DNA of 64,000 nucleotides from Phycisphaerae bacterium (GTDB lineage: Bacteria; Planctomycetota; Phycisphaerae; UBA1845): contig JAJDDY010000087.1 in the NCBI GenBank assembly GCA_029260075.1, forward strand, positions 124,001 through 188,000. Direction: 5' to 3'. The notes under the pieces were generated by a model. That model ran no database searches and was not told the origin of the DNA. It saw only the letters and a list, made by a program, of their open reading frames with translations. A program made the translations under genes and the position numbers. Shown here piece by piece: positions 21,310 through 62,669 of the stretch (position 1 is its first letter; each line of letters begins with the position of its first letter).

Positions 21310-21377
21310 CACGCCGTCAGCACGAAGGTGCGAGATAGGAATCACGCACCAGCCAAGCTTACACGGTGCGAGAAGAG

Positions 21378-21525
21378 GTGCTGTGCCGTCAATCCCTTCT
21401 CGGCACCTCGTGCTGTGCCGTGAATCCCTTCTCGGCACCTCATGAAGAGTCGTGCTGTGCCGTGAATCCCTTCTCGGCACCTCATGAAGAGTCGTGCTGC
21501 GCCGTGAATCCCTTCTCGGCACGTC
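21378..21525. repeat. 42-bp tandem repeat array
   Basis: Two full 42-base units (21410-21451 and 21452-21493) are identical or nearly so, flanked by two shortened 32-base units (21378-21409 and 21494-21525). Each unit contains GTGCCG and CGGCAC around a 12-base loop, so each can fold into a small hairpin. The array lies downstream of rnhA and downstream of the minus-strand gene at 21612, i.e. between convergent genes. No open frame spans it convincingly. Confidence 0.85.
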
Positions 21526-21611
21526 GTGAAACGATGCGAGAAGAGATGCACGTACCAGCCAAGAATCCCGCGCCGGAGAAGGCGCAGCAAGCACCACGAT
21601 TCCGCTCGCAG

Positions 21612-22262: not shown

Positions 22263-22602
22263 ACCCTTCAATCGAGGTGTAACAGAGCACCAGAAACATC
22301 CCCTGTCCGCCCGCACGAGCCGTTACCAACACGTTTCCCGATCCACCGAGCAAGAAAAAAGGACGAAAGACGGCCATTCCGCGGGCTGATTGACGCGATA
22401 TATATATTGCGTCTGTCTTGCTTTCTGGGTACCCTAGAGGCATCGTTTCGTTGCACACGGCATGACCTATCGTGTGTGTTCTGGGGGTGGCGGAAGCCAC
22501 GGGCTTTCTTCGCGATATCTATGCTACGATAAGATTTCTTGGCTAAGCGCGCCGGGGCGATTCGACACATATGGGGAACCGTTTTTGAAAGGAACTGATG
22601 TG

Positions 22603-23550
22603 ATGCGTGGATCCAAAGCAATACTGGCAATAGTGACTCTCGCATTTGGCCTTGCTCCCGCTGCAACGGCCGATGCTCAATCCAAGGCGCCACGCTTGGG
22701 CGCCCGAACGCCCTCGATGCGGCTGGCCACGACCAAGGCGACGGCCGGATTCTCCGCCATGCCGCAACGAGGCGGTGGCACCATTTTCGTAGCATCCAAA
22801 GCCACACTTGCCCCCAACGATGTCGTGCGCGGCGAGACCCTCTCGCTCCGCGACGGTCAAGACGTCGAGCTAACGCTCACGGAAACGGCTGCCAACCGAA
22901 TCGCAACCGCGATGCAGCAGCAAGGAGCGAGTCGACTCGTAGTAGTGCAGCAGGGTCAGGCGGTCTCGGTGGGCACGATCACGATGAGCGACTCCGATAC
23001 GCGAATGATCGTTTCCGGCCTTACTCCGACGGCTGCGAGTCGCTTGGTACGACTAACTCGTAGCAACGCACCGGTGAACATTGGAACAAGGATGTCGCTG
23101 TCGACAACGCAGACTGCCGTAGCCCCGGGAGAACTCGTCACGGTCGAGGTCATGCTCTCCAGCGCATCCGACGTTCGCACGTATCAAGCCACCGTATTCG
23201 CCGAAGGCGGGGACAGCGGCTCACTTATGCTGGAAGACGTCAAGGTCCAGACGCAGCGACCCGACTATGTGTTCCTCGGCGAGCAGAAGCTCGAAGCAGC
23301 CGACAAGCGTGGCGGACGGATCGGCGCGGTGCTCTTCGACGGCGGAGTCGATGTGACCGAAGGCAACCTCGGGACGTTCTATTTTCGAGCATCGACAGAC
23401 GCAGCGGGTACGTTTTCAATTGTAATCCGTAACGACAACAACGCCTCGATCCTCATGAACTCGAAGAACGAGCCGGTCGACTACGCCGTTGCAGGCCCGG
23501 TACGCGTAATTGTCGCAGCCACACGCGAAGCGACACCAGTCGGCCGATAG
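22603..23550 (+). CDS. Secreted protein with cohesin-like domain
   Basis: A 315-residue exported protein. Residues 1-25 form a signal peptide (basic start, hydrophobic core ILAIVTLAFGLAPAA, cleavage near ATADAQ). Residues about 165-305 look like a cohesin/carbohydrate-binding beta-sandwich: SLSTTQTAVAPGELVTVEV opens it, and GNLGTFYFRASTDAAGTF is the typical penultimate strand. Between lies a Thr/Ala-rich region. Such domains mediate protein-protein contact outside the cell, often with dockerins. The ATG at 22603 has AAAGGA nine bases upstream, and earlier in-frame starts lack this. A good terminator lies about 150 bases downstream. Monocistronic; partner unknown. Confidence 0.7.
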   Translation: MRGSKAILAIVTLAFGLAPAATADAQSKAPRLGARTPSMRLATTKATAGFSAMPQRGGGTIFVASKATLAPNDVVRGETLSLRDGQDVELTLTETAANRIATAMQQQGASRLVVVQQGQAVSVGTITMSDSDTRMIVSGLTPTAASRLVRLTRSNAPVNIGTRMSLSTTQTAVAPGELVTVEVMLSSASDVRTYQATVFAEGGDSGSLMLEDVKVQTQRPDYVFLGEQKLEAADKRGGRIGAVLFDGGVDVTEGNLGTFYFRASTDAAGTFSIVIRNDNNASILMNSKNEPVDYAVAGPVRVIVAATREATPVGR

Positions 23551-23858: not shown

Positions 23859-24167
23859 CTAGTGCTGCGTCACACGTCCTCTTGTGGGTTTTAGGATTGG
23901 CTCGTCGGTTCGTGCGGCATCAGAGCCACGGGCGCCAGCCCGCGGACTAGGCTCTGTCTGAAAACTCCGGAGTAACGGTTCGCGACACCGCCGGTGGCCC
24001 GGAAATCCCGAGAAAAACCAGTCGCTCAATAACGACGGACACGCTCAAAACGGGTTTTCAGACAGAGCCTGGTCCCACCGCTAGCGCGGTGGGCTCTGAC
24101 CCGCACGCCTAGTTCCGGTCGTGCGGACTGCGACAACCCAAAGATTAAGGGTGTGACGCTGCACTAG
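23859..24167 (-). repeat. R3 dispersed repeat interrupted by a small inverted-repeat element
   Basis: Terminal repeats CTAGTGCTGCGTCACAC (23859) and its complement GTGTGACGCTGCACTAG (ending 24167) differ at one position. The interior matches the uninterrupted copy at 48627-48812 in reverse, except for a 122-bp insertion at 23949-24070. Removing the insertion restores the expected R3 length of about 187 bp. Confidence 0.85.
23949..24070. mobile_element. MITE-like element nested in R3
   Basis: A 122-bp unit bounded by AGGCTCTGTCTGAAAAC and its exact complement GTTTTCAGACAGAGCCT, a 17-bp perfect terminal inverted repeat. It splits an R3 element at the word that reads GACTGG in the intact copy. 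The flanks CTAG (left) and CTGG (right) could be a slightly decayed 4-bp target duplication. There is no coding capacity, so a transposase would have to act in trans. The ends resemble those of IS5-type elements, but this is only an impression. Confidence 0.75.
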
Positions 24168-24509
24168 GCTGGCGGCGGGTTCGATCGCAGCGACGCCATC
24201 ACCCTGTCGAACCGCCCCGGCAATGCTGTCAGGAGGGCTCCAATCGCACGTCAGTACTGAGAAACCGGTCTGGTTTAGGATACGGCTCAAGTTTTTCAAT
24301 GCTAATATCCGAATAGGTTCAACTCGGAGATCGAACTGCGGGGAGGTGCTCAAGCAACGTCGTAATCGCTTGACCGCGGCTCCCGCAGCGGGTTGGCGAT
24401 GGAATGTGCACCCGGGTCTCTCGAGTCGACCGATCGAGGCCAAGCAGGAGGCGGCACCTCGACCCGGTATGATCCCTCGCGCCTCCTACGCTCAGTAGAG
24501 GCTTCTCAC

Positions 24510-26084
24510 GTGCGCACTATTACGATTGCCAACCAAAAGGGCGGCTGCGGCAAGACGACCATCGCCATTAATCTTTCGGCGTCGATCGCCAAGCAGGGTC
24601 GACGGACGTTGCTGATCGATTTGGACCCGCAAGGCCACTGTGCACTGGGGTTGGCCGTCCCTGAAGAGCAGATCGACTTGTCGATCCTCGACTGTCTGAT
24701 GCGACAGATCGATGGCGAACCGCTCGAACTTTCTCGAATCACGTGGCAGATCGCTCCCAACTTCGACCTGGTCCCCGCCCGGGCCAACCTCAACACCCTG
24801 GAACCCACGCTCGGCACACACGACGATGGCGACAAGCTCTTGAGCAAGCTGCTCGATGGTAACGCGAACAGATACGACTATTGCGTGATCGACTGCCCGC
24901 CCCACTTGGGGCTGCTGATGAAAAACGGTCTCCGTGCGGCGGACGAGGTCATCATCCCCGTCGACACGGGTTATTTTTCGCTTTACGGACTCACGCAACA
25001 ATTGGCCACCATTGAAGAACTGAGCGAGCGATACGGGTCGACTCCGATCATCCGGGTGCTGCCCAACCAATACGACGTCCGAACGAAGCTCGCCCGCGAG
25101 ATTCTTGCGGAGTTGCGCAAGCGATTCGGCCACGTGATGTTTGAAACGCTCGTCAATTTCAACACGAAGTTGAAGGAAGGCGCGAGCTACGGCCAACCCA
25201 TCACAGAATTCGCCCCGACCAGCATGGGCGCCCGCGACTTTGAAGCCCTCGCCCGCGAACTACTCACGCGCGAGCCGGTCAAGACGCCGACCCGTGATCT
25301 CATTCAACACGCCGAGCAACTCGCCGCCAACGCCGAACGCCTGCTGGCTACGACCGCAACGCTCGTCGGCAATAAGTCCCAAGCTGCGGCGCTACCGAGC
25401 GTCGCGGATGGCACGGTGACCGCGCCGACGCCGGCCTCATCTGTCCTACCGGTGATCATTGCGGCTGAGGACAAGCCCGCGGTTTCGGTTGAGCCGACGC
25501 GTGTAAGCGTTTCCAATAGAGATCGTTCGACGACGCCACGCCAGTCGCCGGTAACAACTGCTGCGCCGCTGTCTTCGACTGCACACGTAACGGTCAACCG
25601 CCACGACGAACAAGCCCCCGTGTCACAGGCAACGAGTCCACGCGCCGCGAATGCCGCGAATGCCCTTGACCCCACGGCAGAACTACCCGAGACACCGCTA
25701 ACGGGTATGAATCCGGTGTCGCCGATGCCGCGTCCGCCACTGGCCAACACACCGGCCGTTCCGCCGGCCACGCCGGAGGAGATCGACAAGAAAATCGAAG
25801 AGATTTACGGCGTCCGCCAGGATGGAGACACCGTAATATTCCGCAACCGGTCGACGGACGCGACTGAGGTTCAACTTGCCGGGGACTTCAACGACTGGAT
25901 GCCACATACGACGCCGCTGAGACGACTGGTCAACGGCGATTTCGAAGCACGCCTACGACTGCCCATGGGTCGATACCGTTACCGCCTCGTGATCGACGGG
26001 CGATGGTCCCACGATACTGAAAACCCGATGATGGAAACCAACGAGTACGGGGAGCTTAATTCGATTATCGAGGTGGCGAAGTAG
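24510..26084 (+). CDS. ParA-family ATPase fused to a glycogen-binding (CBM48/AMPK-beta-like) domain
   Basis: A 524-residue protein with three parts. Residues 1-260 are a ParA/MinD-type ATPase: deviant Walker A QKGGCGKTTIA (Lys10, Lys15), LLIDLDPQGH and YCVIDCPPHLG. Residues about 260-420 are a low-complexity Pro/Ala/Thr linker. Residues about 425-524 carry a carbohydrate-binding CBM48/AMPK-beta-like fold: VQLAGDFNDWMPHTTPL, then GRYRYRLVIDGRW and NEYGELNSII. The start is GTG at 24510 with AGAGG upstream; the longer frame runs into a repeat-rich zone. No parB partner follows. Its nearest functional neighbours are the chemosensory genes, and ParA-like proteins position chemoreceptor arrays in some bacteria, so a role in cell-pole or glycogen-granule positioning is possible but unproven. 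Confidence 0.85.
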   Translation: MRTITIANQKGGCGKTTIAINLSASIAKQGRRTLLIDLDPQGHCALGLAVPEEQIDLSILDCLMRQIDGEPLELSRITWQIAPNFDLVPARANLNTLEPTLGTHDDGDKLLSKLLDGNANRYDYCVIDCPPHLGLLMKNGLRAADEVIIPVDTGYFSLYGLTQQLATIEELSERYGSTPIIRVLPNQYDVRTKLAREILAELRKRFGHVMFETLVNFNTKLKEGASYGQPITEFAPTSMGARDFEALARELLTREPVKTPTRDLIQHAEQLAANAERLLATTATLVGNKSQAAALPSVADGTVTAPTPASSVLPVIIAAEDKPAVSVEPTRVSVSNRDRSTTPRQSPVTTAAPLSSTAHVTVNRHDEQAPVSQATSPRAANAANALDPTAELPETPLTGMNPVSPMPRPPLANTPAVPPATPEEIDKKIEEIYGVRQDGDTVIFRNRSTDATEVQLAGDFNDWMPHTTPLRRLVNGDFEARLRLPMGRYRYRLVIDGRWSHDTENPMMETNEYGELNSIIEVAK

Positions 26085-48626: not shown

Positions 48627-48812
48627 CTAGTGCAGGGCAAAACGATAATCTTCGGGTTGTCGCAGCCCGCACGACCGGAACCAGGCGTGCGGGTCAGAGC
48701 CCACCGCGCTGGCGGTGGAACCAGTCTGCGGGCTGGCGCCCGTGGCTCTGAGGCCGCACGAACCGACGAGCCAATCCCAAGACCCACAAATGGACGTGTG
48801 ACCCTGCACTTG
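48627..48812 (+). repeat. R3 dispersed repeat, intact reference copy
   Basis: A 186-bp element bounded by CTAGTGCAGGGCAAAAC and GTGTGACCCTGCACTTG. The interior contains CGTGCGGGTCAGAGCCCACC, the palindromic CCACCGCGCTGGCGGTGG and GCGGGCTGGCGCCCGTGG. It lies between the ptsN-like gene and the prepilin-like gene's 3' end and fills most of that gap. Confidence 0.85.
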
Positions 48813-62503: not shown

Positions 62504-62669
62504 CTAGTGTACGGCCAGTTTTGAATCTTCGGGTTGTCTCCCGCACCAGCGGAGCCAGGCAGGCCGGTCAGAGCCCGCCGCGCTAGCGGTGGGACCGGTG
62601 TCCGCGGGCTGGCGCCCACGGCTCTGATGCCGTCGCAAACCCGTAGATTTAGCTGTGACGCACCACTAG
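62504..62669 (+). repeat. R3 dispersed repeat
   Basis: A 166-bp copy bounded by CTAGTGTACGGCCAG and GCTGTGACGCACCACTAG. The interior keeps GGTCAGAGCCCGCCGCGC and GCGGGCTGGCGCCCACGG. It overlaps the last seven codons and stop of the membrane-protein gene on the opposite strand. Confidence 0.8.

Follow-up and report, generated by a model that had tools for sequence, protein, structure and literature searches.

What is the short unit that sits inside one copy of the repeat R3 in this Phycisphaerae genome, and what could have moved it there? The window, by which we mean the whole stretch of 64,000 nucleotides that was analysed, had been predicted to hold a 122-bp unit with 17-bp perfect terminal repeats that interrupts R3. 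Both repeats are exact, with AGGCTCTGTCTGAAAAC at 23949-23965 on the plus strand and at 24054-24070 on the minus strand, with R3 sequence to the left and to the right of the pair. Allowing up to 3 mismatches, the window contains no further match to AGGCTCTGTCTGAAAAC; shuffled sequence gave a mean of 0.07 matches, and two matches occurred in 0 of 100 shuffles. The outermost A/T of the 17-base repeat is part of a TA target, and since the duplication is TA the element proper is corrected to 120 bp, 23950-24069. We are confident that this element is a non-autonomous MITE of the IS5 family, probably from an IS427-like group, on whose ends an IS5-type transposase would act in trans. The features of the window that bear on it are as follows.

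23860 to 24166, plus strand: interrupted R3 copy with ends TAGTGCTGCGTCACA and TGTGACGCTGCACTA, probably an IS630-type MITE
23950 to 24069, no strand: type A element, a highly likely MITE, non-coding, 120 bp, with ends GGCTCTGTCTGAAAAC and GTTTTCAGACAGAGCC
23950 to 23965, plus strand: left terminal inverted repeat of the type A element, 16 bp
24054 to 24069, minus strand: right terminal inverted repeat of the type A element, 16 bp
23948 to 23949, no strand: left flanking dinucleotide of the window copy, TA, the target duplication
24070 to 24071, no strand: right flanking dinucleotide of the window copy, TG, where TA is expected
48628 to 48811 (approximate), minus strand: R3 copy with the empty site CAGACTGGTTCC
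62505 to 62668 (approximate), minus strand: shorter R3-type copy that lacks the insert, GGACACCGGTCC

Once the insert and one duplicated dinucleotide are removed, the interrupted R3, which runs from 23860 to 24166, is about 185 bp long. With the flanks rejoined, R3 is continuous and could be aligned to 29 further R3 places in this genome (30 stretches, a subset of 75 matching pieces, were taken and one duplicate place was dropped). The site is empty in all 29, reading ACTGGT in 15, ACCGGT in 13 and carrying a small indel in one, and the dinucleotide at the junction is TG in 15 and CG in 13, with TA in none. Two R3 copies in the window had been cited as showing the empty site; both lack the insert, but the one at 62505-62668 belongs to a shorter subtype and has two additional bases at the insertion site.

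The definition of MITEs in PMC3733652 gives a size of 70-300 bp, terminal inverted repeats of 15-30 bp and no coding capacity. The window element, 120 bp long with 16-bp ends, agrees with each of these, and its length limits any product to 40 residues at most. The original prediction that it lacks coding capacity and depends on a transposase from elsewhere is borne out, as it has no gene of its own and transposase genes lie between the same ends in related genomes. Its site falls outside the long ORFs on both sides, namely an ORF at 22462-23550 with no Pfam match on the left and, on the right, an ORF at 24393-26084 for a ParA-type ATPase with a carbohydrate-binding-like C-terminus. The C-terminal domain of the latter is glycogen-binding-like (AMPK1_CBM, 49.6 bits), a pairing that looks unusual. 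Elsewhere in the window, at 21376-21533, a 42-base unit forms a tandem array, with two of the four copies listed being identical.

The genome that contains the window (4.92 Mb in 93 contigs, 96.9% complete) had been allowed for as one that might hold no other copy. It holds three copies of type A at three places, these being the window copy, C52:80542-80663 and C28:35060-35180, so that dispersed copies are found together with a site that is empty in every R3 place compared. Pairwise, the three differ at 3, 4 and 7 of 120 bases. The window copy is identical to the other two at 117/120 and 116/120 positions; neither of these has R3 around it, and the C28 copy has one worn end. Perfect ends had been taken to imply recent movement, which is weakly supported, as the copies differ at 3-7 of 120 bases and the window flanks are unequal (TA/TG). 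A sister family, type B, with ends GGCTTTGTCCCAAAAC, gave 8 matches in the genome, of which 7 are intact and each exactly 120 bp (122 bases when the outer A and T are counted, the ends then reading AGGCTTTGTCCCAAAAC). The ends of types A and B are similar and the length is equal in all seven intact type B copies, whereas the insides differ, with no signal beyond shuffled sequence (10.7% of 300 shuffles were as good), and common ancestry of the two insides was rejected for lack of such a signal. A search of 150 genomes found the type A inside in none but the window's own; matches in three of the remaining 149 cover 21-25 bases, at the ends only.

Flanks were counted for 42 elements, comprising 10 intact copies from the window's own genome and 32 from a scan of public genomes, with GGC...GCC read as the element and the damaged type B copy L095 left out. 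TA lies on both sides in 33 of the 42, and the target, judged by eye, is mostly YTAR. Other solo copies had been expected to carry CTAG or CTRG duplications; the copies exist, but the duplication is TA. An exact four-base CTAG duplication was excluded, and CTAG or CTRG rejected as the duplicated target, because flanks such as TTA/TAA (L023) and CTA/TAA (G020) occur. Two type B copies (L090, L092) sit exactly at the TA end of R3-type repeats, and R3-type repeat ends with TA offer ready TA targets.

The window copy, TA on the left and TG on the right, is one of the 9 elements with flanks other than TA/TA. Its right flank is the commonest R3 dinucleotide at that place (15/29). Among the 42, four more elements keep TA on a single side, with TG or CA facing it, whereas TG/TG and CA/CA pairs do not occur. 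On this single case, the element may have landed in an R3 carrying TG, after which the left flank changed, or in an R3 that had already mutated to TA, with a later reversal at the right flank, or it may have brought the left TA along itself. We give a small chance to the last reading, in which the element can enter a non-TA site while carrying its own donor TA on one side; if true, this would be a departure from simple duplication of the target. An ordinary mutation in one flank, later than the insertion, accounts for these observations equally well and is the simplest answer.

We looked for the end pattern in 100 genomes, one of them the window's own, and found it in 11. In three related genomes facing ends bound complete elements of 918, 921 and 947 bp with TA flanks.

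G013 C22:17661-18580: complete element with facing ends and two overlapping ORFs
G022 C26:9383-10305: complete element with facing ends and two overlapping ORFs
G020 C263:4053-5001: complete element with facing ends and two overlapping ORFs

The first ORFs of all three match DUF4096 (PF13340) and NF033580, the NCBIfam model for IS5 family transposases. The second ORFs of G013 and G022, the two that the scan covered, match DDE_Tnp_1, and NF033580 is above its cut-off for both ORFs of these two elements; for the first ORF of G020 the score was 105.4, below the cut-off of 110. An A6-G or A7-G run lies at the ORF overlap in all three, and in G013, where the frame was checked, the second frame is open from the A-run, as a -1 frameshift would need. 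In G013 the transposase frame (L096, about 1060-1085) extends across the terminal repeat to a TAG stop whose first two bases are supplied by the duplicated target TA; in G022 (L097) the second ORF has the same final residues.

The assignment to the IS427 group, read from sequence, would follow from the length of the duplication and the two-ORF layout. The cognate complete elements of G013 and G022 carry an IS5-type transposase, and the duplication is a short one of 2 bp, TA/TA in 33 of 42 with TA/TG at the window copy. Rows of the IS427 group in the table of PMC3281130 (for example IS1248 and ISPam4) list elements of 832-865 bp with mostly 2-bp duplications. Short inverted ends and the 2-bp duplication are thus shared with those rows. 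The complete relatives here, with an NF033580-type transposase in two ORFs, are longer at 918-947 bp, and the window element differs from the group in being geneless and 120 bp long.

In our proposed mechanism an IS5-type DDE transposase would recognise both 16-base ends in trans, move the element and join it to a TA target, duplicating the TA; the target would have lain midway along an R3 copy, R3 being a probable IS630-type MITE in its own right. The joining chemistry would be that of DDE elements in general. We infer that an IS5-type transposase moved the window copy. The insides of the three complete elements resemble neither family beyond the ends, with 60-95% of 100 shuffles as good for type A and 11-56% of 100 for type B, and an origin of type A by internal deletion from one of the three was rejected on this ground.

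R3 itself has a probable parent. The R3-type end pattern YTAGTGCWNNGTCACA occurs 85 times in the genome, whereas its reversed control occurs once. One facing pair, C20:61533-62759 (G000, L180), is an IS630-family element of two ORFs with ends TAGTGCTTTGTCACA, scoring 64.7 and 121.7 bits to NF033545 (cut-off 100) and matching HTH_32 and DDE_3. Compared over the outer 15 bases alone, the R3 end TAGTGCTGCGTCACA resembles TAGTGCTTTGTCACA; given this likeness to the ends of a complete IS630-family element in the same genome, R3 is probably an IS630-type MITE, as far as sequence can tell. The C20 element is the probable driver of R3 and of the other repeats that start with AGTGC. Several contigs end within about 140 bases of ends of the form TAGTGCTTTGTCACA, a pattern that a multi-copy element interrupting the assembly would leave. 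A second facing pair, C21:31049-32312, is unlikely to be an insertion sequence: the arms extend into another repeat of the genome, and the long ORF that they enclose, judged by eye, is not transposase-like.

The ends had also been predicted to flank a transposase gene. They do so in the three related genomes, but a complete transposase gene between matching ends was not found in the window's own assembly, where exact matches to the type A ends all belong to the three 120-bp copies. Therefore the source has been lost, was left unbinned or lies elsewhere. It could instead be proposed that the MITE was moved by another transposase of the same genome, either the IS5-type pair on C6 or the IS630-type element. 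C6 carries the only complete IS5-type (IS5_3-type) ORF pair in the assembly, about 41% identical over the first part, the weaker IS5-type match on C68 being a fragment, and the complete IS630-type element has ends that also sit at CTAG. However, around the C6 pair no long terminal repeats and no ends like GGCTCTGTCTGAAAAC were seen, and the IS630 ends TAGTGCTTTGTCACA differ, which leaves this explanation improbable. Still less credible is a structural or regulatory repeat (a terminator, an RNA hairpin or a REP-like sequence) spread by recombination between R3 copies, for although the element lies between long ORFs and folds as RNA into a strong stem made up mostly of the paired ends (-52.3 kcal/mol, z -4.81), as any 17-base inverted repeat would, the other two type A copies have no R3 around them and the same ends, with TA on both sides in most elements, bound complete insertion sequences.

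Beyond this genome, the public bins were scanned for elements that have these ends and a length of about 107-137 bases. The scan returned 32 stretches: a single Truepera bin accounts for three, and the other 29 come from Planctomycetota bins, of which some bear the title Pirellulales or Phycisphaerales. Sorted by the 9-mers that they share, the insides form nine groups, distinct from types A and B. Short elements with the same IS5-type ends (L156, L159, L166, L168 and L146, L150, L162, L170) have insides that look palindromic by eye, as if mobile ends had captured other repeats. The end pattern gave 0 matches in viral contigs, in a search that demanded exact ends and would miss decayed copies. 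All 10 intact copies in the window's genome are 120 bp long; a fixed length as a functional constraint was rejected, and no general constraint is claimed, because elements with the same ends measure 108-135 bp in the public scan, and those of G149 and G011 reach roughly 270-290 bp. In the literature searched, GGCTCTGTCTGAAAAC was not found printed as one unbroken word, and among the papers on planctomycetes and MITEs that were listed, none was, judged by title, about these elements.

A comparable case is RUP of Streptococcus pneumoniae, a MITE of 107 bp that PMC2229807 attributes to IS630-Spn1; it has IS-like ends and TA targets and is reported inside other mobile elements. Being small and non-coding, RUP is an analogue both for the nesting seen here and for R3. 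The attribution to IS630 marks the difference, as here it is R3 that appears to be of IS630 type, while the element nested in it has IS5-type ends.

The nested miniature transposon is a genuine but ordinary event. It allows the small repeats of this genome to be explained as two layers of MITEs, an IS5-type one inside a probable IS630-type one, with likely parents named for both layers. In annotation, such elements can be located directly by searching for the two ends. That one kind of ends encloses differing insides in several Planctomycetota suggests that the ends alone define the mobile unit.
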